Source: a virus. From it: 46,682 bases of DNA. The position numbers were made by a program, and so were the translations under genes. The stretch covers positions 1 to 46,682 of IMG/VR virus record IMGVR_UViG_3300049595_001259; one strand, written 5' to 3'. Below the pieces are notes generated by a model. That model had not been told where the DNA came from. It was given only the letters and a program-made list of their open reading frames with translations, and searched no databases. Positions within the stretch are counted from its first letter, which is position 1. Every line of letters begins with the position of its first letter. Positions 2,503 through 17,561 of this stretch are shown here, in pieces.

Positions 2503-3183
2503 TTAAGTCCACTCAATATAGACGCTACCGTTACCTCCTCCACTGGCCGCAGGTGCGTTTTCGCCACCGCCACCACCGCCACCACCTGCGCCGATACTTA
2601 TAGCAATAGATGCTCCATAACCTGGGGCATCGGCATCATTCCAATTCCATGTTTTAACAACTTTGCCACCAGCGCCTCCGGAATTACAACCAGTACCACC
2701 GCCAGCGCCGCCTCCTGATGTAACTGTTCCTCCAGAACCTCCTCCAGCAGCACCACTTGGTGGACAATAATCTTGACCACCGCCTCCTCCGCCAGTACCA
2801 CCATTTGCAATTACGTTATTACTACTGTAGAAAGTTGTATTGCCACCAGAAGCTCCAGCCCCCCCACAATATCCATAAGCAAATCCATCGTTACCACAAT
2901 AACCAGTTGCACCACCGCCCCCTGCATTTATTGTAACAGTAAGAGTTTCATATCTGGGTACAGAGAAATATTGTGTAGATCCGGTATAACTAAACGAATT
3001 ATTGCCAGGTGTAACCCATCTTTTCCCATAAGCGGTAGAAATACTTATTTGCCCAGATGGAACTCCTAATAATGTTCGAACATCAGCATCATTCAAAGAT
3101 CTTTGCGAAGTAGAAGATCTTAAAATTTCTACAGAAATATTGGCAAAAGAAATAACACCAGAACCTGGTAAACCAGTAGTCAT
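2503..3183 (-). CDS. Glycine-rich tail-tip adhesin candidate
   Basis: Protein of 226 residues in two parts. Residues 1-55 are a common phage structural motif (SGVISFANISVEI, LNDADVRTLLGVPSGQISI, AYGKRW). Residues about 60-226 hold a beta-rich segment followed by long Gly-rich runs (AGGGGATGYCGNDG, GGTGGGGGGQDYC, GAGGGGGGGG). Such runs resemble the polyglycine-II sandwiches of T-even gp38-type adhesins, where loops between glycine strands contact the receptor; this is analogy, not proven homology. It is the last gene of the fibre transcript, directly after the S74 fibre, with a TAA-TAA-ATG junction. Several Cys residues lie in the Gly-rich part. Likely role: receptor-binding tip or accessory adhesin. 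Confidence 0.65.
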   Translation of the reverse strand: MTTGLPGSGVISFANISVEILRSSTSQRSLNDADVRTLLGVPSGQISISTAYGKRWVTPGNNSFSYTGSTQYFSVPRYETLTVTINAGGGGATGYCGNDGFAYGYCGGAGASGGNTTFYSSNNVIANGGTGGGGGGQDYCPPSGAAGGGSGGTVTSGGGAGGGTGCNSGGAGGKVVKTWNWNDADAPGYGASIAISIGAGGGGGGGGENAPAASGGGNGSVYIEWT

Positions 3184-3186
3184 TTA

Positions 3187-5265
3187 TTAAATCCCTATTT
3201 TTAATTTCAATTCATCAATTTGTTTCTGCTGTTCTTTGATTGCTTCAATCAACAAAGCAACAATTCTATCATATTTAACCGCTTTAGTGCCGTCGTCTTT
3301 AGTTGCAACTACTTCAGGCAAAACCTTTTCAATGTTTTGAGCAATAACACCGACGTCATGTCTACGGATAAAGTATCCATCTTCACCACCACGAGCGTCC
3401 ATGAATTCCTGGGTCCAATCGAATTCAACGCCGTCGACTAACATAATCTTTTCAAGGGCGTTTTCGATGGGTTTTACGTTTTCTTTGAAGATGGCGTCTG
3501 AAGTATAATAAGCTGTGATGTTATTATTTGCTCTAATTTCGCCAGCAGTTCCGGAAGCAGCAGTACCAACACCAATTGAATTAAATTGTGAGTTCTGCGA
3601 AGTAGAAGTGAATGTTGCAGAGCTTCCATCAATCGAGACGCCTGTAAGAGTTTGAGACCCTGTTGTTCTATTAATTGTCAGTGAAGTAGTACCAATAAAC
3701 ATTGTTTGATTTGTTGCTGCAGCGCCGATCTCACCAAGAGTCCATGAAACAGCAGCAGATCCATCAACAGATTTACCAGTTGATCCGATAGTAATAGTTC
3801 TTGACGTACCCCATGTAGCAGTTGTAATAGCAGCAGAACCATTGAAGGCGGAACCATTAATGTTTCTAGAAGTAGCCAATGTGGCTGCACTGTTGACGTT
3901 AAGATTTCCTTCAGTCTTACCATAAGCTGTTGTGGCATTATTGACGTTAAGATTTCCTTCAGCCTTACCATATGGTCCAGTACTATTACCAATTAAGGTC
4001 GTTCCTACGTAATATGATACTGCATTTACAACAGTAGCATTGGCAGTAAATGCGGTTCCTACTGTATGACTAGCAGCGTTCATCGTTCCTGTATGATAAA
4101 CGCCAGTGGCATTGGCAACAAGAGATGTTCCTACTGTATGCGAAGAACCATTAACTACGCCAGTATAAACCGGAAGATAAGCAGCGATATTAGCGTTTAA
4201 TGTTGAATTGAGTTGGTAAGAAGAAGCTGCTGTACCGCCTAAATTGGTTGAGTTATTAGCAATTAATGCGCTGTTAACGTTAAGATTACCTTCGGACTTA
4301 CCATTAACAAATGTTGTATTGTTAGATGAAATCGTTCCAATATATGTTGCATTAACATGAACGCCAGTGGCATTAACAACTGCACCAGTTCCTGGAGTAA
4401 CAAACAAACCTGTAGAATTGGCTGTAATACCATTATTAGCTAGAACTGACAATGTTCCAGAACTTGTGATAGCGCCGCCAGTTAGACCGTTTCCGGAACC
4501 AACAGATGTTACAGTTCCTGCATTAACGTCGTCGACTGCCCAATAAGTGGCTGTACCATTAGAGTGAAGAACTTGGCCAGCGGTGCCGTAAGTACCATTA
4601 GCAGAAAGACCAGAACCTAACACTACGTTAGCATTATATGTATGAACGCCAGATATTGTAAATGCAGCAGTAGTATTAATAACGTTGGCTGGTATTTGAG
4701 CGTATGGAAGAACGCCTGTGGTTATATTAGTAGCATTGGTGTAAAAAGAACCAGGTTGGCTGTTTAGGTTAGTAGCATTAGTTGCCTGCACAGCACTGTT
4801 AACATTTAGAGTAGCTTCTGTTTTACCATAAGGTCCAGTAGCATTACCGATTAATGTTGCGCCAACATAATATGAAACAGCATTAACAACAGTAGCATTA
4901 GCAGTAAAGGCAGTTCCAACAGTATGACTAGCAGCATTAACGATACCAGTATAAACGCCAGTAGCGTTAGCAACAGTAGAAGTGCCAACTGTATGACTAG
5001 CAGCGTTCATAGTGCCAGTGTGATACGCACCAGTAGTATTGGCGATAAAAGTTGTTCCGACAGAAACACTAGTGCTGGTATTAGCGAAACCAACAATCGT
5101 TGTATTTCCGAGATAAACATCCCCTAGAGTAGAAAGACGATGGGTGGGAGCCGAATTATTGATACCCACATTACCTGTAGCGGTAACAGTGACTGCTGTT
5201 CCTAGTAAGGTGGTATTTGAGCCTGTTTCTAGACCATTCTTGACGACGAAATTTTTATCTGCCAT
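3187..5265 (-). CDS. Tail fibre with C-terminal S74 intramolecular chaperone
   Basis: Fibre protein of 692 residues. The N-terminus MADKNFVVKNGLETGSN is followed by a VGINNSAPTHRL motif typical of trimeric phage fibres. The long central shaft (about residues 40-500) is rich in Asn, Ser and Thr, with 23-residue-type units such as NAASHTVGTSTVANATGVYT. A C-terminal peptidase S74 domain starts near residue 589: SDAIFKENVKPI carries the expected Ser-Asp dyad and Lys, with VGVIAQNIEKVLPEVV after it and a closing coiled coil (LLIEAIKEQQKQIDELK). In this family the domain drives trimer folding and then cuts itself off before the Ser. A block near residues 240-340 is nearly the same as one in the fibre at 6191-8848. 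The ATG follows GGGGACAGGGAACC. Confidence 0.9.
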   Translation of the reverse strand: MADKNFVVKNGLETGSNTTLLGTAVTVTATGNVGINNSAPTHRLSTLGDVYLGNTTIVGFANTSTSVSVGTTFIANTTGAYHTGTMNAASHTVGTSTVANATGVYTGIVNAASHTVGTAFTANATVVNAVSYYVGATLIGNATGPYGKTEATLNVNSAVQATNATNLNSQPGSFYTNATNITTGVLPYAQIPANVINTTAAFTISGVHTYNANVVLGSGLSANGTYGTAGQVLHSNGTATYWAVDDVNAGTVTSVGSGNGLTGGAITSSGTLSVLANNGITANSTGLFVTPGTGAVVNATGVHVNATYIGTISSNNTTFVNGKSEGNLNVNSALIANNSTNLGGTAASSYQLNSTLNANIAAYLPVYTGVVNGSSHTVGTSLVANATGVYHTGTMNAASHTVGTAFTANATVVNAVSYYVGTTLIGNSTGPYGKAEGNLNVNNATTAYGKTEGNLNVNSAATLATSRNINGSAFNGSAAITTATWGTSRTITIGSTGKSVDGSAAVSWTLGEIGAAATNQTMFIGTTSLTINRTTGSQTLTGVSIDGSSATFTSTSQNSQFNSIGVGTAASGTAGEIRANNNITAYYTSDAIFKENVKPIENALEKIMLVDGVEFDWTQEFMDARGGEDGYFIRRHDVGVIAQNIEKVLPEVVATKDDGTKAVKYDRIVALLIEAIKEQQKQIDELKLKIGI
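3960..5010. repeat. Imperfect direct duplication inside the S74 fibre gene
   Basis: About 150-190 bases near 3960-4150 recur near 4830-5010. Both copies encode a segment of the form MNAASHTVGTAFTANATVV followed by a YYVG-x-TLIGN-x-TGPYGK element. The copies differ mainly at third codon positions, which points to an old in-frame duplication of shaft units kept under protein-level selection. Confidence 0.6.
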
Positions 5266-5347: not shown

Positions 5348-5527
5348 TTATTTAATGACTTTATCAGCCAAAGGTCCATCTGGGCGTGGAGCTCTCAATT
5401 GAGCGTCTGCCTGTTTCTGAACCTCTGTGAAAGTTACTAGAACAGTTTCTAATGGCAACTTTGAAAGACCAAGCATAATTACATTTAGTTGATCGATTGT
5501 CAATTCAAGTTTAATATTCTTATCCAT
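5348..5527 (-). CDS. Small conserved phage protein of 59 residues
   Basis: Read directly from the sequence: a 59-residue protein beginning MDKNIKLELTIDQLNVIMLG and ending PRPDGPLADKVIK. It looks like a beta strand followed by one or two helices (LNVIMLGLSKLPLETVLVTF, then EVQKQADAQLRAP). Short proteins of this pattern, with a hydrophobic start, a Leu/Gly-rich helix and a Q-rich helix, are common in phage tail clusters, but I know no function for them. The ATG is preceded by GAAGGGAAT with good spacing and follows the stop of the 125-residue gene by 12 bases, so it belongs to the same transcript. It is one of several small genes following the fibre at 6191-8848. Confidence 0.75.
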   Translation of the reverse strand: MDKNIKLELTIDQLNVIMLGLSKLPLETVLVTFTEVQKQADAQLRAPRPDGPLADKVIK

Positions 5528-5539
5528 AAGTTATTCCCT

Positions 5540-5917
5540 TCAGTTATTGCTAGTTACTGTATTTGATACAGGCGTTGAATTTGTTACTGGAGCCCAAGGT
5601 AGAGAGTTATCCACAACTGGGTTCTTTTTCTCGTCAATCTGTTTCTGAATTACTTCGTTTACATGATTCTCATAAGTGTCAACAACCACTGCTTTGATCC
5701 AAGTAAGAACGTCATTTTCAGTCAAATCTGAAAATGGAATGAAAGAAGTATTAGCTGGCATATTATTAGAAGAAAATGGAGTTGCTCCAGAAAATTCTCC
5801 AACAAGATCGCCATCGGTTCCTATTTTCTTCCAATATGTCTGCACGACAACATCAGAAGTATTAGCAACAGTTGTAGTTTTTAGTCCAGTTACTTTCCAT
5901 GTATATGATACTGCCAT
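5540..5917 (-). CDS. Small virion-cluster protein, paralogue of the one at 8852-9178
   Basis: Protein of 125 residues. It starts MAVSYTWKVTGLKTTTVANT and has the motifs DVVVQTYWKKIGTDGDLVGEF, FIPFSDLTENDVLTWIKAVV and KNPVVDNSLPWAP. The same plan (short strand, variable strand ending TYW or IHW, GTDGD or KDGD, PF/PY-x-DLT-x-DV, then NP-VV...LPWA) is found in the protein at 8852-9178, so the two are paralogues. The family is frequent in T4-like and other marine phages (I recall it as a DUF, possibly DUF7936) and has no assigned function. It follows the 885-residue fibre and a 79-residue gene in the same transcript; a dedicated fibre chaperone or connector is a reasonable guess. The C-terminus has an added Asn/Thr/Val-rich tail. 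Confidence 0.75.
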   Translation of the reverse strand: MAVSYTWKVTGLKTTTVANTSDVVVQTYWKKIGTDGDLVGEFSGATPFSSNNMPANTSFIPFSDLTENDVLTWIKAVVVDTYENHVNEVIQKQIDEKKNPVVDNSLPWAPVTNSTPVSNTVTSNN

Positions 5918-5945
5918 TTTAATCCTCGTAGTTTATGTTTTAGGT

Positions 5946-5953
5946 TATTTATT
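5946..5953 (-). promoter_or_regulatory. Putative late promoter, AATAAATA
   Basis: AATAAATA on the minus strand in the 34-base gap before the 125-residue gene, 28 bases upstream of its ATG and overlapping the stop of the preceding gene. It is the same variant as at 715 and at 41297/41316. Confidence 0.45.
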
Positions 5954-6191
5954 ATAATCCTAATGCTTGTTTTAATTCATCAATAGTCAGACCAGCACGC
6001 TGCAGTTTTTCCTGAACTGTTGGTTCTGGTAACGGTTCTGGTAATGGGTCAGGATCTTCTGGCGTGTTGCCTTTTTCTAACCATGCCTGATATTCAGCCC
6101 ATTCTTCTTCGTGTTCTGGACCAATAATCATATTGTCAGTAAGTCTGACTACTGCTTCTGTATCAAATCTTGATCTATAATTTAATGCCAT
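5952..6191 (-). CDS. Small fibre-associated protein with Pro-Glu linker
   Basis: Protein of 79 residues in three parts: an N-terminal strand region (MALNYRSRFDTEAVVRLTDN), a W-rich helix (EEEWAEYQAWLEKGNTP) joined to a Pro/Glu-rich linker (DPLPEPLPEPTV), and a C-terminal helix (EKLQRAGLTIDELKQALGL). The YQAWLEKGNTP element and the closing GLTIDELKQALGL helix recur in small proteins next to tail fibres of many phages, often called tail fibre assembly or chaperone-like, though evidence for that role is thin. It overlaps the end of the 885-residue fibre gene by one base, which indicates translational coupling to the fibre. Confidence 0.7.
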   Translation of the reverse strand: MALNYRSRFDTEAVVRLTDNMIIGPEHEEEWAEYQAWLEKGNTPEDPDPLPEPLPEPTVQEKLQRAGLTIDELKQALGL

Positions 6192-8848
6192 TAGTTATAT
6201 CCGTATATTCTTACTGTTCCAGATATATTGCCTGAATCAGAATATATCTGGAAACCTGTGATTGCTACTTGAGAACCTGTATACCATCCACCGCCTTGAA
6301 CTCTTGCTGCATAACCTGTTGTATAAGTAGGACCGCATAGATTGTATTGGTATGCTTTATTAGTATTCGTGTTGTTCGTATTATATATTGTAAATGTTCC
6401 ACTCATACCGGTGCCACCAGTTGCAGCAGTAATAAAATAAGCAGGATATGTCATATATATGAACGTTCCCGAAGATGAATGACCGCCAGAACTGTTGTTG
6501 TTAAAATACGTAAAGACTGCATTATAGTAGTTACCAGTCAAGAACGCACCACCACCATGTAGCTGCATACAAAGCGTTCTGGATTGTGTTATTGGAACCA
6601 AACTGTCAAATTCAATTTCATAACTACGATAACCAGATAGCGATGTATAGTTTAGAGTAGCAACATTGGTACCAGTAACAGTGGCAACAAGTGTTCTAGA
6701 ACCAGAACCTGTAACAGATAGATTACCACTAAAGCTGGCATTACCAGAAGAATCAATAGTAAGTCTGGTAGAACCATTACTACGAATATAGAAAGGAACA
6801 GCCGAGTCTGTTCCAACGCCGCCTGCAGTTCCATCAAACCACAATGATCCCCATTGAGAGTTCTGTGCGCCATTGGTAAATTGTAGAATAGATGCTGTAG
6901 CGCTTGAACCACCGCCTGGATAAATTCTTACGCCATAGTTACCACCACCAGTTCTAGCAATAAGACCGTTAGAATCGATGGTATGTAGTCCAGCAAATGT
7001 GGCAGTATTGAATACAGACGAAGAAGCAGGATCACAATAATAAGCGCTGTTTCCACTATCATAGAATATCGGAGCCCAAAGGTTTCCGCACTGGAATGAT
7101 TCGTATGCATTACCAGGATTGTTCAAGATACTAATTTGACCAAGTGAACTCATAGCAATCTGTGATGCTACACGACCGCCCCAATGGAAACCAATACGTG
7201 GTGCATATGACCAAGAATCTGTTTGTGCGCCACCAAAGTTATATTCACGAACTTCGATGGCTGCTTGAGAGTAAGATGCTGCTAACTGGTTACTAGCCAC
7301 ACCACCTTCAATCATTATATTATTAAAGTTTGAGGTTGATGATGGGTCAACATAATATGCTGTGTTATTTGAATCATAGAATATTGGTGCACGCCAATCG
7401 GTAGAAGCCTGACCAGTACCATCCCAAGTTAGGTTACCATCGCCACCAAATCTTAGGACCTTTGTTCCACCGCCGCCTGTGAATGTTCTTAGATTAGCAA
7501 AAGAATTGTTGGCGCCATTACCTGTGGATGGATAATAATGCACATATGTGTTTGTGGAATCATACATATTAGTATAATAATGCTGCGACATAACAAATGC
7601 GGCAGAAGAGAAGTTCCATCCACCTGTGACTGAAGCAGATTCTGCTTTTCTTGGGTAATCAGTAGATACGTATGTTCCAAGATAAGAAGAATTGTTAGCA
7701 GTTGGCCAAGTACCGGAAGCGTTTGAAGCATCAGTAAATGCTAAATCTTTATATGTGCTATAAGCAGAGGTGTTACCTGTTGTTAAGTTTGACCATGCTG
7801 CTTGATAAACACGAACACCAATAGCAGACTTATTAAACATTAAAAGGTTATCTGATCCCCCAGAAGAATCAGAATAACTTCTCATATGAAGGAAGTCGGC
7901 CCATGGTGAAGTATTATTGTTATTAAAAGAAGTAAATCCAAAACGAAGAGTTTGTGAAGGAAAATCATTTGCTATGATAATTCTATCATCAATCCTTAAA
8001 AGCACATTAGCATAAAGAGAACTGTTAACGTTCAGATTACCTTCTGTCTTACCATTGACGTAGGTAGTATTATTAGCAGATAATGTTCCAATATATGTTG
8101 CATTAACATGAACGCCAGTAGCGTTTACAACTGATCCAGTTCCTTGTGTTACGAATAAACCATTAGTATTTGCTGTTATACCGCTGTTTGCTAAAACAGA
8201 AACAGTTCCTGTTGTCGAAATAGTACCACCAGTAAGACCGTTACCAGTTGCAACAGAAGTTACTGTACCTCCTGAATTATCATCAGCCGCCCAATATATA
8301 GAAGAACCGTTAGAGTGTAAAACTTGACCAGCAGTTCCTAGACCACCATTAGCATAGATGCCAGCGCCGGCAGAAACTATCAATTCACCAGCAGCGCCAA
8401 TACTAACATTAGCAGTTGTCGTTAGACCAGAGGAATTAGCAGTAAAAACAGACCCAACAGTATAAGAAGCAGCATTAATTGTTCCAGCAACAGTCAGACC
8501 GTTTAGATTTGATGTTCCCGCAGCGTCTACATAATAAGCTGTATTGTTGGAATCGTAGAATAATGGAGCACGGAAATCCGAAGTAGCAAAAGCTGTTCCT
8601 TGAACATGTAACTTCTGTGTTGGCGCTGTGTTACCGATACCAAAATTACCATTGGCAACAGAATAAGCAGCAGTGCCAATGGTAAATGTATTGGTGGTAG
8701 TAGAATTAATAGAGACAGACGTTGCATTCAATGATGCATTTACTGTCGAGTTACCAACAGTAATAGATCCAGACACCAACAGATTATTGGTAGAAGGATC
8801 AACAGTTATTAACTGACCTAGATCGCCTAATTCTCTATTTTGTGCCAT
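6191..8848 (-). CDS. Large tail fibre with RAP-FYDSNNTAYYVD repeats
   Basis: Fibre protein of 885 residues. Start: MAQNRELGDLGQLITVDPST. The shaft has VGNSTVN units and a FGIGNTAPTQKLHVQGT motif, followed by at least three copies of a module around RAPIFYDSNNTAYYVDPSSTS (near residues 95, 485 and 600). This module is familiar from fibres of cyanophages and other marine T4-like phages. The C-terminal 190 residues form a separate beta-rich tip (Tyr, Gly and Asn-rich) ending SDSGNISGTVRIYGYN, like the receptor-binding end domains of other fibres; no S74 domain is present. A block near residues 200-290 is nearly the same as one in the S74 fibre. Its TAA-TAA-ATG junction couples it to the 108-residue gene before it. 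Confidence 0.85.
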   Translation of the reverse strand: MAQNRELGDLGQLITVDPSTNNLLVSGSITVGNSTVNASLNATSVSINSTTTNTFTIGTAAYSVANGNFGIGNTAPTQKLHVQGTAFATSDFRAPLFYDSNNTAYYVDAAGTSNLNGLTVAGTINAASYTVGSVFTANSSGLTTTANVSIGAAGELIVSAGAGIYANGGLGTAGQVLHSNGSSIYWAADDNSGGTVTSVATGNGLTGGTISTTGTVSVLANSGITANTNGLFVTQGTGSVVNATGVHVNATYIGTLSANNTTYVNGKTEGNLNVNSSLYANVLLRIDDRIIIANDFPSQTLRFGFTSFNNNNTSPWADFLHMRSYSDSSGGSDNLLMFNKSAIGVRVYQAAWSNLTTGNTSAYSTYKDLAFTDASNASGTWPTANNSSYLGTYVSTDYPRKAESASVTGGWNFSSAAFVMSQHYYTNMYDSTNTYVHYYPSTGNGANNSFANLRTFTGGGGTKVLRFGGDGNLTWDGTGQASTDWRAPIFYDSNNTAYYVDPSSTSNFNNIMIEGGVASNQLAASYSQAAIEVREYNFGGAQTDSWSYAPRIGFHWGGRVASQIAMSSLGQISILNNPGNAYESFQCGNLWAPIFYDSGNSAYYCDPASSSVFNTATFAGLHTIDSNGLIARTGGGNYGVRIYPGGGSSATASILQFTNGAQNSQWGSLWFDGTAGGVGTDSAVPFYIRSNGSTRLTIDSSGNASFSGNLSVTGSGSRTLVATVTGTNVATLNYTSLSGYRSYEIEFDSLVPITQSRTLCMQLHGGGAFLTGNYYNAVFTYFNNNSSGGHSSSGTFIYMTYPAYFITAATGGTGMSGTFTIYNTNNTNTNKAYQYNLCGPTYTTGYAARVQGGGWYTGSQVAITGFQIYSDSGNISGTVRIYGYN

Positions 8849-8851
8849 TTA

Positions 8852-9178
8852 TTATGCCCAAGGAAGTGGTGGTGTTACTACAGGTGGGTTCTTCTGGCCA
8901 GCAATAGCAGAAGCCAATGAAGTTTCAAACTCTGTAATCTTTTCTTCGCCTATAGCTGCCTCGAGCCAAGCAACAACGTCGTCTTTTGTTAGATCAGCAT
9001 AAGGTTTAAAATTCTTCAAACTGTCAACGTTCAAAACCTGAGAACCATAAACGTCGGCATAATAGTCGCCGTCTTTGGCTGTGTATCTCCAATGAATGTT
9101 GAAAACAACGTCAGTCTTTTTATCTTTTTCTGGGTAGCATTCAAGCTGAGAAACAACCCAATCATATACAATTGCCAT
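8852..9178 (-). CDS. Small virion-cluster protein, paralogue of the one at 5540-5917
   Basis: Protein of 108 residues beginning MAIVYDWVVSQLECYPEKD. It shares the family plan of the 125-residue protein: VVFNIHWRYTAKDGDYYADV, then FKPYADLTKDDVVAWLEAAI, then QKNPPVVTPPLPWA at the very C-terminus. The ATG has a TAGGAG ribosome site. It sits immediately before the 885-residue fibre gene, while its paralogue lies after it, so the two copies bracket that fibre and may serve different fibres. Function unknown; a chaperone or adaptor role is inferred from position only. Confidence 0.75.
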   Translation of the reverse strand: MAIVYDWVVSQLECYPEKDKKTDVVFNIHWRYTAKDGDYYADVYGSQVLNVDSLKNFKPYADLTKDDVVAWLEAAIGEEKITEFETSLASAIAGQKNPPVVTPPLPWA

Positions 9179-9194
9179 GTTTTACTCCTATGTT

Positions 9195-9446
9195 TTAATT
9201 ATTTAGTGGTGTGTTCATGGATGCTTGGTATGCTTCAAGAACTTCTTGAGTCCAGGCGACATTAGCAATATCTTGAACATTCTGAGGCATCTCTGAAATG
9301 TCTGAACCGGGAGCAAAAGACCAACGGTGATAGGTCTGAGCGATCTGTTCGCCGTCACGAAGGACTCTGGTAGCCTCTCTAACGAGTAGGGTGCCATTCT
9401 CGGTGACTGTGATTTGATCAATTACTTTTGTTTCTGTTAGTGCCAT
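9195..9446 (-). CDS. Small conserved phage tail-cluster protein
   Basis: Protein of 83 residues: MALTETKVIDQITVTENGTL, then a basic strand (VREATRVLRDGEQIAQTYHRW), then PGSDISEMPQNVQDIANVAW and TQEVLEAYQASMNTP. The TYHRW...PG-D...V-IAN-WT-EV-AY pattern is common in small proteins beside phage tail fibres and probably folds as a beta-hairpin followed by helices. No function is known to me. It follows the 552-residue fibre after a 52-base gap holding a short inverted repeat. Its ATG has AAAGGTAA upstream. Confidence 0.7.
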   Translation of the reverse strand: MALTETKVIDQITVTENGTLLVREATRVLRDGEQIAQTYHRWSFAPGSDISEMPQNVQDIANVAWTQEVLEAYQASMNTPLNN

Positions 9447-9468
9447 TGTAATTACCTTTCTGTGTCCG

Positions 9469-9489
9469 ACTACGCCAATCCAGCGTAGT
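9469..9489. other. Short inverted repeat in a fibre/small-gene gap
   Basis: ACTACGC and GCGTAGT (7-base arms, 7-base loop) in the gap between the 552-residue fibre gene and the 83-residue gene. No run of T follows on either strand, so it does not look like a terminator. It could shape the 5' leader of the small gene or slow mRNA decay. Confidence 0.4.
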
Positions 9490-9498
9490 TAATTAGGT

Positions 9499-11157
9499 TT
9501 ATGCTGATGTATAATAACTAAACATTCCTGTTATGATAGTACCAATACCAGCAACCATTGTTGCTACTGTGATAGTATTAGTTGCCACATCCCATACCAT
9601 TGCTGTTGTTGATCCTTGATTGACATACAATTGATCTGCTTTATAATCTGGAGAAGCGGGATGCCAACTCCATGACATAATTCTAGATGCCATACCATAT
9701 CCGGGCGAAGATGCTGTAAAAGGAAGACCACCTAGCATTAAACTTCCTGAACCACCAGAAGCTGATGATTTAACTATTTTTACGAAACAAACAACCAATC
9801 TGCCTATTTTTATATAACTACCTAATTGTTCGCTATAAGAAACAGTAGGATTACTAGTAGAACCCAAATAAGTAGGAGTCCATGTGCCTTCCTCATAATC
9901 ATCAAGGGTGTTGGCGTCAGACGATGCAGATTGTGATGCTTGGAATTTGATACCTTGGAGACCAGATAAAGATAATATGGTACTATTTGCAGTAAAAATC
10001 TCAGTGTTTCTAAAATAAAACTCATGTTTTTCGGCAACATATCTAAGGTTCGTCCAAACAGCTCCGCTTCTATTATAAGAAAGAATTTGAGAAGTATTCG
10101 CTTCAGCATTAGGTATAAACTCTATACCTTTGGCGCCAGCGTCAGAAACAACTAATGGGTACGAAGGAGAAGTTGTTCCAATACCAATATAACCCGTAGA
10201 AGTTATTCTCATGCGTGCTGCGTTATTGGTGTATAATATTAAAGGAGAATTTTGTGAAGTACCAACCCAATATTGACCATTATTCGACGAATAATAAGTA
10301 TATCCAATGCCGCCGCCATATATAAGATTATATAACGATCCAGAATATGTTCCACCCACAGTAACTTTGTGGTAAGCCCAATCAGAATTTGTTCCAGAAG
10401 CGCCACCACTTACTGTGTCAGAATATACTGTATTTGCACCATAAATTGTTAATTTATCGTTTGGTGTGGATGTTCCAATACCAACTCTGCCGGCAGAATC
10501 AATACGTACACGTTCTGTAGAATTTATTTTGAAATTTATACTTCCGCCAGCATACGTAGAAGTGTTTTCAAGCGTAAATCCTTCGTCGCCAGAGTTATAA
10601 TAAATCAATCCTTGATAACCAGCATATTCACCAATAGCCAATTTGTTTTGACTGTTAGAATTAACATAACTACCAATATGTAATCTATATAATGGTGTAG
10701 ATGTACCAATACCAAAGTTACCATTAGCGACAGAATAAACAGCTGTTCCTATAGTAGCAGTGTTGGTGGTGGTTGTAAGGTCTACTGACTTAACACCTTT
10801 ATTAAAAACAAAATCATCAATGGAACTATCATACAGCATGGTCGCTGAAGCGCCGTCGATAGTTAATCCTGCGCCGTTGGCAGCAGCAGCGCTTGCTGCG
10901 CCTTTAGCAATAGTAATGTTTAGATCTTTAACATCCAACACGGTAGTATTAACATACATTGTCGAACCGGTAACAGTAAGGTTACCAGTAATTGTTACGT
11001 TGTTACTAAATGTTACTGGTCCAGAAAGGCCAGATGAATTGATTGCAACGCCACCAACATTAACAGATGTGATTGAACTGGAATTGACCGTGATGGCCGA
11101 AACCAATACATTAGCACTAGTAGCGAGTCTAGCTAGATCATTTGTTAATGTTGACAT
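9499..11157 (-). CDS. Tail fibre with EEGTWTP-type tip domain
   Basis: Fibre protein of 552 residues. The N-terminus has an Ala/Ser/Asn-rich helix-like start, then VTITGNLTVTGSTMYVNTTV and the segment AKGAASAAAANGAGLTIDG, which is common in virion structural proteins of T4-like marine phages. The middle holds several GIGTSTP motifs (VANGNFGIGTSTPLYRLHIG, VGIGTSTPNDKLTIYG, IGIGTTSPSYPLVV) spaced by beta-rich blocks with phrases like INSTERVRID. The C-terminus begins LDDYEEGTWTPTYLG and continues YIKIGRLVVCFVKIV ... GLPFTASS, a recurrent tip domain in phage tail fibres. No S74 chaperone is present. It follows the 92-residue gene in the same transcript. Confidence 0.85.
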   Translation of the reverse strand: MSTLTNDLARLATSANVLVSAITVNSSSITSVNVGGVAINSSGLSGPVTFSNNVTITGNLTVTGSTMYVNTTVLDVKDLNITIAKGAASAAAANGAGLTIDGASATMLYDSSIDDFVFNKGVKSVDLTTTTNTATIGTAVYSVANGNFGIGTSTPLYRLHIGSYVNSNSQNKLAIGEYAGYQGLIYYNSGDEGFTLENTSTYAGGSINFKINSTERVRIDSAGRVGIGTSTPNDKLTIYGANTVYSDTVSGGASGTNSDWAYHKVTVGGTYSGSLYNLIYGGGIGYTYYSSNNGQYWVGTSQNSPLILYTNNAARMRITSTGYIGIGTTSPSYPLVVSDAGAKGIEFIPNAEANTSQILSYNRSGAVWTNLRYVAEKHEFYFRNTEIFTANSTILSLSGLQGIKFQASQSASSDANTLDDYEEGTWTPTYLGSTSNPTVSYSEQLGSYIKIGRLVVCFVKIVKSSASGGSGSLMLGGLPFTASSPGYGMASRIMSWSWHPASPDYKADQLYVNQGSTTAMVWDVATNTITVATMVAGIGTIITGMFSYYTSA

Positions 11158-11184
11158 TTAATAACCTTATTGTTTTTTAAATAT

Positions 11185-11463
11185 TTAGGTATTGGATACT
11201 GGAACAGCGGCTAGTGCTTCTTCGTTTCTCTGTGCTGCTGTCTTAACCCAACCGTTAGCAAAAGCAGCGGCTACGATTTCATCTTTTGAACCAGGAATGG
11301 ACTGCCCAGCCTCTAGGAACTTCTCAACTGCAACCTTAACGATCTCGTCAATAGCAATACGAGCACGTTCGTGAGCGGCATTCTGAATCCAATCATCAAC
11401 AGAAGCGGCTGCATACTGCATTGCCTTATCTTCTGTTTCTGTGTATTCAACTGTGTATTTCAT
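11185..11463 (-). CDS. Small fibre-cluster protein, mostly helical
   Basis: Protein of 92 residues starting MKYTVEYTETEDKAMQYAAA. The open frame runs 13 codons further upstream, but this ATG is chosen because AAAGGAGAA lies seven bases before it; the upstream extension would overlap the end of the 984-residue fibre. Ala-rich helices dominate (AHERARIAIDEIVKVAVEKF, DEIVAAAFANGWV). A similar N-terminus and WIQNAAHERARIAID-type stretch occur in small proteins of other phage tail regions. It lies just after the C1q-tipped fibre; function unknown. Confidence 0.75.
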   Translation of the reverse strand: MKYTVEYTETEDKAMQYAAASVDDWIQNAAHERARIAIDEIVKVAVEKFLEAGQSIPGSKDEIVAAAFANGWVKTAAQRNEEALAAVPVSNT

Positions 11464-11474
11464 AATTTTCTCCT

Positions 11475-14429
11475 TTAACCTAATAATGCGTAACTTGCCC
11501 AAGCAGCAGCCAAAGCAGCAGGGCTTGGACTGTCATGATTGAAATTAAATTGGACATAATCGCTTGCCGCTAGATACCTAATATGAGATAGTGATGCGCC
11601 AAATGCTTTACCACCTGATGTATCATAAGCCCAACTCTCAACAACAGTTGAACCATTATGTAATAACGATATATTAAAATCTGAACCACCAGTACCAGCG
11701 GTTCTTCCGATACAAGTAAATAGATAATAACCAGCAACAGGAGCAGTGAGTCTATAAGTAGATGTATTCCAAAGTGTAAATCTTTCTTGATTGACTGTAG
11801 CAAAAGGAATTATGTTTCCTCTTGTAAGAGTTCCTGACCATGATACAGATCCCGCTGGCTGATACGGAGTAGTAATACGGCCTGATCCATCAATCTGCAT
11901 ACGAACAGCACCAGCAGAATGATCATATACTTGGAAGTTCCCACCATCAATACGAATACCACGTGTATCGCCACTATTTTGACAAACGAATCCAGAAATA
12001 CCCGCTCCAGCAGCGCTATTTCTTGCCAATACAAAATTGGTTCCGTTATTATGAACTTCTAATCTACCATAAGCAGGAGTAGATGTGCCAATACCTACGT
12101 TACCGCCAGATGTTATTCGCATTCTTTCATAAGCAGTTCCGTCTTGTGTAGTCCAGAAACTTAATCTAGCATCTTGAGTTGATGCTGTAGTATTCCATGA
12201 ACTATCACCATCAGCAACAACTCTTGCCATTTCAACAAGAGTGCCACCAGATGATGTTCTTGATTGAAATGTGATGCCAGCGCCGTAACCGTTTGTTCCA
12301 CCTTCTAGTAAAAGTTGTGGTGCGTCACTAACAGAACCAGAAGCAAAAATATGTAATTTTTTAGATGGTGATATTGTGTTTATACCGAAATTACCGGACG
12401 CATCAATTCTTCCACGTTCAATTTCATTAATACCAAATAATAAATTGTTACTACTGTTTGTAGTAACCATACCATTACCTTGTAGTATGAAGCTATTACC
12501 AGATTGGATAGTGTCTCCTGCGTATATCTTACCGTTTACTTGTAATTTTCCATATTGAGGATTAGTAGTACCAATACCAGTGTTACCATTACCATCAATA
12601 TAAAAAACAGATCCACCACCAACATTAGAAATTTGAAAAGAGTTAGCTGCTGGAGAACCTAACCAAATTCCATTAGTAGAACTATTATATCTCAATCCAA
12701 TAGCATATGCTTCGCTAGATGGTGCGAATTGTGCTCTACCACCATTCAAATCGAATTTGAAAGCAGGGGAGTTAGTACCAATACCTACTTTACCATCAGT
12801 TTTAACAGTTAAACCATAACTCGAAGAGGTATCACCATACAAGGTTATAGAATTACTTCCTGTGATCCAGCCATCTACGTTTTGTAAACGAATATTACCA
12901 CCATTGACTGTGAATTTATATCCAGCTAATGGTGTTGTACAAGCTATACCAACGCTACCATTAGCTACAACATATAACGATGAACCAATAGTAAAAGTAT
13001 TAGTAGCAATAGCATTAATGCTTGCAGGACCAGTTCCAAAAGAAACATTAGAACTACTATTAGAAATAGTAAGAGTAGTTCCTGTAATAACAACATTTGA
13101 TGTTGAATTACCAATTAATAAAGTAGAACCATTAAGAGCAATATTACCAGCAGTGATTTGAGTATTAACAGTGCTATTACCAACTGTGATACTATCAGAG
13201 CCAATAGTTACATTAGAACCAACAGTAATAGCATTAGCGCCAAGACCAACAGTTGTTTGATAACCATAAATGTCAATGATATTACCATTGCTTGGAGTGG
13301 TATAGAATCCAACGTTAGCTCCTGAAGTAATAGCAACATCTGTATTTGGCGCTTGTTTAACACCGTTTAAAAACACCAATAGAGTATTTGGTATATAACC
13401 GCCAGATATAGCAAAAGAATTAGCAGTTCCGTTGGCTGTGATCTGCTGATTAACAACAGTATTAACTCCTGTAGAATATAATCTAGATGGACCAATAACA
13501 TCTATCAAAGAGCCGTTTGAAGGTGCTGGAGAAATTACAAAATTTGTTCCTGATGTTACTGTAACTTCTGAACCATTACGAAGCAACACACCATTAAGAA
13601 AAACTGAAATAGAATTGGGGATGTATCCACCAGCTACAGCGAATGAAGTGGTTGATCCATCGCCTGTGTATTGTAGCTGTAATGGAAGAACGCCGCCAAT
13701 TGGAGTAAACCAATATGTAGAAGAACCATTAGTAGCAAGAACCTGACCATTAACACCAAGAGTTCCGTTGGAATAGATACCAGCACCATTAGCAAGAATT
13801 AGTTCGCCAGAAGTTTCAATACTAAGGTTTCCGGAAATAGAAGTTGCGCCTTCAACTCTTAGTTTATGTGCAGGAGTAGTGTTACCAATACCAAAATTAC
13901 CACCGTTAAGAAACCTAGCAATTTCCGCCATAGATGTGCCATTGTTGGCATAAAAAATCAACGGAGCATTGGATGAATAGGGTAGTGATAATATTGATGC
14001 AGTACCGACACCCTGATTTTGAAATATTACACCACCGTCACTAGTTCCGCCGGCATTCAGAACTATTCCTGCTCTACCTGCTCCATTATTTTTAACTTGA
14101 ATATAATGATTGCTACCTGTATTCGCTTGAATGTCTAGTCGGTAGCTTGGAGTTGAAGTACCAATACCAACATTACCATTGGCAACCACATACATGGTTG
14201 TGCCAAATGTGGATGTGTTAGTTGTAACGTAAAGGGTATTAATGTTGGCTGTATTTGATACGCTGAGGTTAGTTAGATTAGCGCCAGTTTCCCAAACATT
14301 GGTACCATCCGAAGAGAACAGTTTTCTATCTGTAAGATTTAAACCAAGTTCGCCGATCGCCAGCGTGGATGTATTCGGTACTTTACCTGCGACTGATGAT
14401 CGACGCAGTTTGAAAATTGTATTTGCCAT
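11475..14429 (-). CDS. Large tail fibre with C1q/TNF-like C-terminal domain
   Basis: Fibre protein of 984 residues. The N-terminus IFKLRRSSVAGKVPNTST followed by LAIGELGLNLTDRKLFSSDG is a start shared by many phage fibre and virion proteins, probably the part that attaches to the baseplate. The shaft has at least four VGIGTSTP-type motifs. Near residues 260-390 are two copies of a roughly 65-residue unit (GDGSTTSFAVAGGYIPNS, then ANGTANSFAISGGYIPNT, each followed by VFLNGV). The last 130 residues (SWSGTLTRGNIIPFATVN, YRLTAPVAGYYLFTCIG, YLAASDYVQFNFNHDS) look like a C1q/TNF jelly roll, a trimeric ligand-binding fold. The start ATG lies downstream of a near-palindrome; AGGAGAG is its ribosome site. 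Confidence 0.85.
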   Translation of the reverse strand: MANTIFKLRRSSVAGKVPNTSTLAIGELGLNLTDRKLFSSDGTNVWETGANLTNLSVSNTANINTLYVTTNTSTFGTTMYVVANGNVGIGTSTPSYRLDIQANTGSNHYIQVKNNGAGRAGIVLNAGGTSDGGVIFQNQGVGTASILSLPYSSNAPLIFYANNGTSMAEIARFLNGGNFGIGNTTPAHKLRVEGATSISGNLSIETSGELILANGAGIYSNGTLGVNGQVLATNGSSTYWFTPIGGVLPLQLQYTGDGSTTSFAVAGGYIPNSISVFLNGVLLRNGSEVTVTSGTNFVISPAPSNGSLIDVIGPSRLYSTGVNTVVNQQITANGTANSFAISGGYIPNTLLVFLNGVKQAPNTDVAITSGANVGFYTTPSNGNIIDIYGYQTTVGLGANAITVGSNVTIGSDSITVGNSTVNTQITAGNIALNGSTLLIGNSTSNVVITGTTLTISNSSSNVSFGTGPASINAIATNTFTIGSSLYVVANGSVGIACTTPLAGYKFTVNGGNIRLQNVDGWITGSNSITLYGDTSSSYGLTVKTDGKVGIGTNSPAFKFDLNGGRAQFAPSSEAYAIGLRYNSSTNGIWLGSPAANSFQISNVGGGSVFYIDGNGNTGIGTTNPQYGKLQVNGKIYAGDTIQSGNSFILQGNGMVTTNSSNNLLFGINEIERGRIDASGNFGINTISPSKKLHIFASGSVSDAPQLLLEGGTNGYGAGITFQSRTSSGGTLVEMARVVADGDSSWNTTASTQDARLSFWTTQDGTAYERMRITSGGNVGIGTSTPAYGRLEVHNNGTNFVLARNSAAGAGISGFVCQNSGDTRGIRIDGGNFQVYDHSAGAVRMQIDGSGRITTPYQPAGSVSWSGTLTRGNIIPFATVNQERFTLWNTSTYRLTAPVAGYYLFTCIGRTAGTGGSDFNISLLHNGSTVVESWAYDTSGGKAFGASLSHIRYLAASDYVQFNFNHDSPSPAALAAAWASYALLG

Positions 14430-16955: not shown

Positions 16956-17225
16956 TTAGAAAACTCCACCATCTAAATCACCGTCTATATTACCAAAATC
17001 CAAATGTTTAACTTGATAGGTGTCTGTTGTATTATCGTAGATCAGTGTGGATCCATCAGTTCTTTGCGATAAACCAACATCCCTTAACTCATCAATTGTG
17101 TCAAGACCAGAAGAAATAATCGGAGTGTTCTTCAACGTCACAGGTATAGTTGTATCGATAACGCCAGCTGTGGCGTTAGTAGAAACCTTTACATTTCTTT
17201 TTCTCGAAACAACAACATTTACCAT
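16956..17225 (-). CDS. Small virion structural protein with LDGG-type C-terminus
   Basis: Protein of 89 residues: a basic beta-rich start (MVNVVVSRKRNVKVSTNATA), a middle (PIISSGLDTIDELRDVGLSQ, then TLIYDNTTDTYQVKHLDF) and the end GNIDGDLDGGVF. Small proteins of this kind with an LDGG-aromatic end are found next to fibre genes in T4-like cyanophages and are reported there as virion proteins; the recall is general, not a search. Its last residues match the style of the 612-residue protein that follows (YLDGGSF). The start follows the TAA-TAA-ATG junction with the 110-residue gene. Confidence 0.7.
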   Translation of the reverse strand: MVNVVVSRKRNVKVSTNATAGVIDTTIPVTLKNTPIISSGLDTIDELRDVGLSQRTDGSTLIYDNTTDTYQVKHLDFGNIDGDLDGGVF

Positions 17226-17228
17226 TTA

Positions 17229-17561
17229 TTATCTCGTAACTTGTGGTGTGACCGTCACTATACCTTCGACTACTCTAGAAATAGCGTTAGTAGATGTTTC
17301 TCTTAATTCCACATCGTAAACATATCTTCCAGCAGTTAACAAATTAGTCTGATTAGCTGATAGGGTCAAAATGATTTGGCCCGAGTTAGTATTTATCGAC
17401 GTGGTAAATGCAGTAGAATTAGAAGAAGTATACCATTTTCTCATCTGAGCGTTAGCCGTAAATCCGTCAAGATTTAGGACGTCTCCAGTGTCGTCGCTTA
17501 AATCTAATTCAACCGAAAAAGTGGTTCCTTGATCTATTACTAGATTAGCTTTTGTTGCCAT
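17229..17561 (-). CDS. Ig-like virion protein (BppU-like N-domain type)
   Basis: Protein of 110 residues with an all-beta, single-domain pattern: LVIDQGTTFSVELDLSDDTG, then LDGFTANAQMRKWYTSSNST, then a strand-rich end (GRYVYDVELRE, VEGIVTVTPQVTR). The opening QG-TF-V-L-L-DD-G and Y-YDV-L pattern is shared with N-terminal Ig-like domains of baseplate proteins such as BppU, and this short stand-alone form is common in T4-like marine phages. Likely a baseplate adaptor or decoration. It overlaps the stop of the preceding 1079-residue gene by one base in a TAATG junction. Confidence 0.75.
   Translation of the reverse strand: MATKANLVIDQGTTFSVELDLSDDTGDVLNLDGFTANAQMRKWYTSSNSTAFTTSINTNSGQIILTLSANQTNLLTAGRYVYDVELRETSTNAISRVVEGIVTVTPQVTR

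Follow-up and report, generated by a model that had tools for sequence, protein, structure and literature searches.

Fibre chaperones are already known from a few model phages, and these provide the closest described counterparts of the genes considered here. Tfa (gpU of phage Mu; the Pfam families PF02413 Caudo_TAP and PF16778) is encoded directly after the fibre, is matched to the fibre end and is exchanged together with the fibre; the Mu record carries S/U and S'/U' as alternative pairs, and U and U' match PF02413 with E-values of 7e-37 and 3e-37, respectively. In the myocyanophage Pam3, the fibre gp24, which has a TNF-like distal part, depends on a separate chaperone, gp25, which was not detected in virions (PMC9608196). 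Small genes paired with a fibre are also represented by gp27 of Alteromonas phage V22 and gp9 of A5, by description a beta-hairpin 'tentacle' on a helical body that resembles the S74-type intramolecular chaperones. Here we analyse a fibre cluster of a water-borne T4-like phage, the virus record IMGVR_UViG_3300049595_001259, a stretch of 46.7 kb with T4-like baseplate genes (its full length is termed the window below), in which three large fibres with different C-terminal tips are each followed by small genes. We consider it reasonably likely that, behind each fibre, the small gene that comes first codes for a helper whose type corresponds to the fold of the C-terminal tip.

The original prediction had read from this locus an order of a 984-residue fibre and a 92-residue gene, a 552-residue fibre and genes of 83 and 108 residues, and an 885-residue fibre and genes of 79, 125 and 59 residues. 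Every one of these open reading frames (ORFs) is present on the minus strand, with the lengths and in the order it gave. From the 984-residue fibre onward in transcript order, the intergenic gaps are 11, 52, 16 and 3 nucleotides, after which the 79-residue gene overlaps the stop of the 885-residue fibre by 1 nucleotide and gaps of 34, 12 and 82 nucleotides follow. A nucleotide search of the region against phage records returned zero matches. Relatives of the small proteins were found in IMG/VR, and those of the 92-, 83- and 108-residue proteins also in pelagiphages, T7-like and T4-like cyanophages and others. Our survey took in about 300 fetched loci (referred to by L-numbers), including IMG/VR stretches and named phage records, and the upstream gene was read for every unique relative of a small gene. 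In this reading, the upstream fibres of any one small family shared one kind of C-terminal tip: relatives of the 92-residue gene (92-type) trail C1q-like tips ending in '...GYLLG', 83-type genes trail tips starting with 'LDDYEEGTWTP...YTKIG' (TW tips), and 79-type genes trail tips ending in '...SAEL' or '...SGN...YGYN'. The arrangement goes beyond chance, with homologous small genes trailing the same tip class in unrelated phages.

When the tips were assigned by profiles, 241 of the 244 partnered tips had the expected partner, against a mean of 94 and a maximum of 120 in 10,000 shuffles. Excluding all loci fetched through the tip in question or through its partner left 80 of 82 in agreement (shuffle mean 37, maximum 50). 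Since the seeds of these profiles came from the genes preceding each family, all gene ends were clustered in a second analysis that ignored their neighbours. The clusters so obtained were nearly pure: the TW cluster was followed by an 83-type gene in 136 of 158 cases and the SAEL cluster by a 79-type or NRHY gene in 47 of 52, and the C1q cluster had a 92-type gene behind 43 members and an XkdW-type gene behind 12.

The 984-residue fibre (11475-14429, minus strand, as are all features of the window given below) matches tail fiber phrogs and ends in a tip domain spanning residues 843-984 (11478-11903), of which residues 843-969 match a C1q-tip profile built without window sequences (E-value 2.7e-28). 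A homologous tip from L016 was modelled as a C1q jelly roll resembling the C1q domain of human Caprin-2 (E-value 2.6e-12, TMt 0.87), and by way of this model and the profile a C1q jelly-roll fold is predicted for the window's tip. The 92-residue gene behind it (11185-11463) has an ATG start preceded by AAAGGAG, a good ribosome site, and lies inside a longer mechanical ORF of 105 residues with a TTG start. Relatives of its product are encoded by 97 IMG/VR stretches, and a scan of bacterial genomes with the 92-type alignment recovered a single locus, in a metagenome-assembled genome of the Chloroflexota. The protein gave no Pfam match above the cut-off and no match to the PDB by sequence. Partner folds were taken from models made by reading through the fibre stop in relatives that have both genes in frame, a computing device only; the 92-type model from such a relative is all-alpha, with four helices. 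The fetched loci contained no fusion of a fibre and a small gene into a single ORF. A 92-type or XkdW-type gene is the immediate partner of 53 out of 96 C1q tips, and for another 16 such a gene lies no more than six genes further on. Tips of this class that end in alanine or valine mostly pair with the XkdW-type gene (11 of 18), but since this subclass was defined post hoc the pairing is a refinement and not a prediction.

Two further observations concern these families. XkdW-type domains in L193 and L031 are fused to a second small domain (of the 'YPDY' type) or to Phage_tail_APC, which suggests that chaperones for other tip classes are built on the same modular plan. The 39-kb Limnohabitans phage DC33 (L184, PQ492659.1), whose filing under Inoviridae looks wrong, encodes an 848-residue C1q-type fibre and a 92-type gene.

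The 552-residue fibre (9499-11157) carries the TW tip domain in residues 415-552 (9502-9915) and matches the TW-tip profile, built without window sequences, with an E-value of 6.7e-34. The modelled fold of a homologous TW tip from L151 resembles the Dettilon tailspike gp208 (E-value 3.6e-4). Behind this fibre lies the 83-residue gene (9195-9446), whose product matches phrog_6228 over residues 1-78 (E-value 8.3e-17), as do 49 of 50 aligned members of its family; in the read-through model of the L151 homologue the 83-type protein consists of three beta strands followed by two helices. This phrog is listed without a function, and the pairing would now make it the partner of TW tips. An 83-type gene stands directly after 128-136 of about 157 such tips. 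When the window's TW tip was the sole query of a protein search, 11 distinct named isolates were recovered after duplicate records were merged, and in nine of them the 83-type gene is directly downstream of the tip; for KBS-P-1A and Sf-CH5, whose regions were left unfetched, the pairing was read from match positions. A second TW tip of S-B05 has an 83-type gene directly behind it, in DSL-LC05 the 83-type gene is three genes downstream of the TW tip, and S-SRM01 alone carries four matched pairs of tip and small gene. In Methylophilales phage Melnitz-3 (L308, MZ577098.1) the fibre-like genes each have a small gene behind them; of these small genes, one is 83-type and two are annotated as 'tail assembly chaperone'.

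The third fibre, of 885 residues (6191-8848), matches an SGN-tip profile built without window sequences (E-value 1.5e-48), its tip domain 'SGN...GTVRIYGYN' comprising residues 717-885 (6194-6700). The 79-residue gene that follows (5952-6191) encodes a 'W.EYQ.WL..GNTP' domain with no Pfam match above the cut-off. In L280, an SGN-class tip with 58% identity to that of the window forms a separate gene of 194 residues, which is again followed by a 79-type gene. Tfa joins a variable, fibre-binding N-terminal domain to a conserved C-terminal one. The window's 92-, 83- and 79-residue products are all single short proteins; in a relative of the 79-residue protein, the 117-residue protein of L038, a 79-type N-terminal domain is fused to the tail-assembly-chaperone domain Phage_tail_APC (PF16778, E-value 1.6e-13). 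A leave-one-out profile of the other members recognised this 79-type domain with an E-value of 6e-17.

A fourth fibre, of 692 residues (3187-5265), offers a contrast within the locus. It ends in the intramolecular chaperone Peptidase_S74 (PF13884, E-value 8.7e-14; about 3307-3501), which a Pfam scan did not find on the 984-, 552- and 885-residue fibres, and no small gene stands behind it. Among the 65 members of the S74-tip cluster, none was followed by a 92-, 83- or 79-type, NRHY or XkdW-type gene. Where the chaperone forms part of the fibre, no separate one accompanies it.

The remaining small genes behave differently from the first gene after each fibre. The 108-residue (8852-9178) and 125-residue (5540-5917) proteins are paralogues, both matching PF25590 (DUF7936) at 97.9 and 64.5 bits, respectively, with a cut-off of 27. 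Their relatives trail S74 fibres, 83-type genes, 79-type genes, a 550-residue gene ending in '...LDGGSF', or each other, and in L279 (IMGVR_UViG_3300043468_000545) three consecutive DUF7936 genes directly precede a fibre that starts like the window's 692-residue fibre. The 59-residue gene (5348-5527), whose product has no Pfam match above the cut-off, follows a DUF7936 gene in 10 and an 83-type gene in six of 21 unique members, and the triple of 79-type, DUF7936 and 59-residue genes is conserved in L008 and L280. As the genes upstream of the DUF7936 and 59-residue genes vary, we rejected the idea that all six small genes form one matched set. The expectation that each small gene would travel with the same fibre tip in relatives thus holds for the 92-, 83- and 79-residue genes, for which profiles, clustering, isolates and a natural swap (see below) agree, and is not supported for the other three. 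To judge from these gene contexts, the DUF7936 proteins and the 59-residue protein appear to be general accessories of fibre clusters with no matching to tips. DUF7936 (PF25590/phrog_7802) is listed without a function, and a search of the available literature found no paper on it. Members of this family are labelled 'lysozyme' in Flavobacterium phage immuto, S-EIVl and DSL-LC07 (L189, L305 and L306); this label is probably a propagated mis-annotation. The window's members match only PF25590 above the cut-off, and no lysozyme family.

Two isolates of one phage species, ACG-2014j, document the exchange of a tip together with its small gene. US103 has a fibre with a TW tip and an 83-type gene, whereas at this place the fibre of US23 has a C1q tip and an 83-type gene is absent. 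Identity between the fibre heads is 84-89%, and the right-hand homology (97.4% over 2460 bp) starts where the 83-type gene ends in US103 and where the C1q gene ends in US23. These junctions indicate that tip and small gene were gained or lost together, which bears out the suggestion that the small genes are swapped along with the fibres, here as a block of TW tip and 83-type gene replacing or replaced by a C1q tip between homologous flanks. Relatives of the window also show the pairs in a different order: in L008 this is TW tip with 83-type gene, then C1q tip with 92-type gene, then SGN tip with 79-type gene. The original prediction had further called the small proteins fibre-specific, and this needs to be qualified. 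Where the small proteins are at least 80% identical, the mean identity of their tips is 34% for the 92-type (101 comparisons) and 28% for the 83-type (616 comparisons), with little or no difference from tips of the class in general (30% for C1q and 27% for TW). Given that tips with a likeness of only about 30% are accompanied by near-identical small proteins, the pairing is by fold class and not by receptor specificity; the small proteins are specific to a tip fold class, but not to an individual tip. Among the conserved columns of the tips are those at the very end of the C1q and SAEL classes.

Taken together, the 92-, 83- and 79-residue genes probably encode tip-specific helpers for folding or capping that are exchanged together with the tips. 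The helper would be made directly after the fibre, the 92-residue protein for the C1q, the 83-residue protein for the TW and the 79-residue protein for the SGN tip, and would bind conserved features of the tip class, the prime candidate being the residues at the very C-terminus. It may then aid folding and trimerisation of the tip, or cap it, before being released or loosely retained in the manner of Tfa of Mu, gp38 of T4 and gp25 of Pam3. Tip and helper would be exchangeable as one block, and fibres that end in the self-cleaving S74 chaperone would need no such partner. The analysis demonstrates the pairing, its restriction to tip classes, its absence after S74 tips, the exchange as a block and the fusion of a 79-type domain to a tail-assembly-chaperone domain; physical binding, chaperone or cap action and docking at the C-terminus are what we infer. 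If recognition is directed at the fold class rather than at the variable receptor-binding loops, a helper that hardly changes could serve many different tips.

Several observations weigh against this reading. About half of the C1q tips have no immediate 92-type gene, so that this partner is not obligatory, and tandem arrays of C1q tips (L013) have one 92-type gene closing the run. The read-through models of tip plus partner reached a predicted TM-score of 0.56 for the 83-type and 0.55 for the 92-type, values too low to claim an interface; we rejected these models as evidence of binding and used them for the folds of the parts. In a Pfam scan the 92-, 83- and 79-residue proteins matched neither PF02413 nor PF16778, and homology of the 83- and 92-type profiles to Tfa of Mu was rejected, as hhalign with Mu U gave a probability below 1%. 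Finally, most loci are metagenomic and were fetched via one of the two partners, a bias avoided only in the subset with 80 of 82 matches and among the named isolates.

Of the other explanations, the one that survives best, though we regard it as unlikely, is that the three proteins are permanent components of the tip or its joint, acting as a cap or co-adhesin in the mature virion. The same gene pairing would be expected of such components, Tfa of Mu and Ur-lambda has been reported in mature particles, and the role proposed for the Alteromonas phage chaperones is that of a transient 'cap'. However, the small proteins are far more conserved (at least 80%) than the tips they accompany (about 28-34%), unlike an adhesin that contacts the receptor, Pam3 gp25 was not detected in virions, and the S74 fibres, which remove their own chaperone, are without these partners. 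The fusion of a 79-type domain to Phage_tail_APC, the complementarity with S74 and the published cases of Pam3, Mu and V22 favour a chaperone over a joint protein.

It is also conceivable, if rather improbable, that the small genes are passengers, that is, conserved stretches behind hypervariable tips that provide homology for recombination and have no action on the fibre. The exchange junctions do coincide with the shared fibre head and with the point where the small gene ends, and the block of homology between US103 and S-CAM4 takes in the 83-type gene while leaving out most of the tip. Yet conservation is seen at the protein level between distant phages, with pairwise means of 47-55% and invariant residues, and mere passengers would be expected neither to match the tip fold nor to be absent after S74 tips; the fusion of one 79-type domain to a chaperone domain also speaks against such a role. 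That the small proteins serve some other process, such as lysis or host takeover, and merely share a late operon we consider very improbable. This reading is most plausible for DUF7936 and the 59-residue protein; in a T7-like pelagiphage, the fibres and the lysozyme are separated by a series of small genes that includes the DUF7936 gene. For the 92-, 83- and 79-type proteins it is countered by a pairing with tip classes that persists among phages whose gene orders differ greatly.

We return to tip-matched helpers as the preferred reading, from which small uncharacterised families common in cyanophages, pelagiphages and freshwater phages gain a testable role. The pairing predicts from sequence which helper to co-express with which tip, and a helper that reads the fold class possibly explains how tips could vary freely without loss of fibre assembly. 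More tentatively, and at somewhat less than even chances in our estimate, aquatic phages may use a 'tip code', in which a few unrelated families of mini-chaperones, one per tip fold class and blind to the variable receptor-binding surface, would recognise the C-terminal residues as their key, while S74 tips would be self-supplied. Under such a code, every tip belonging to a class could be inserted next to the unchanging helper of that class.

Some neighbouring genes of the window also deserve mention. Upstream of the three fibres, a fibre of 1079 residues is likewise trailed by two small genes on the minus strand, of 110 residues (17229-17561) and 89 residues (16956-17225). The product of the former matches phrog_3304, 'L-shaped tail fiber protein assembly' (E-value 4.8e-25), and the end of the latter, '...DGDLDGGVF', echoes the '...YLDGGSF' end of the succeeding 612-residue gene. 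A 226-residue protein (2503-3183) has a polyglycine-rich C-terminal half, like the glycine-rich adhesin domains of gp38 and Pam3 gp24, and a 249-residue protein encoded downstream of the fibres (730-1479) has weak similarity to GDSL lipases/acylhydrolases (PF13472, below the cut-off).

In comparison with the known systems, the helpers proposed here share with Tfa the position, the matching to the fibre end and the exchange, but unlike Tfa they are single short domains, the conserved C-terminal part of Tfa being absent or possibly encoded by a separate gene, and three unrelated partner families stand side by side in one genome. A search for common ancestry of the 83-type, 92-type and DUF7936 families found no profile-profile similarity, and the 83- and 92-type families had no sequence match to solved structures. 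The likeness to Pam3 lies in the distal part of the fibre, TNF-like in gp24 and C1q in the 984-residue fibre, and in the build of gp25, a beta domain plus helices, which may be set beside the three strands and two helices modelled for the 83-type. Unlike the proteins described here, gp25 has 162 residues and a Tfa-like C-terminal domain, and the partner of the C1q tip is all-alpha. With V22 gp27 and A5 gp9, finally, these genes have in common that a small gene is paired with a fibre and, along with that fibre, shared between phages of different morphotypes.

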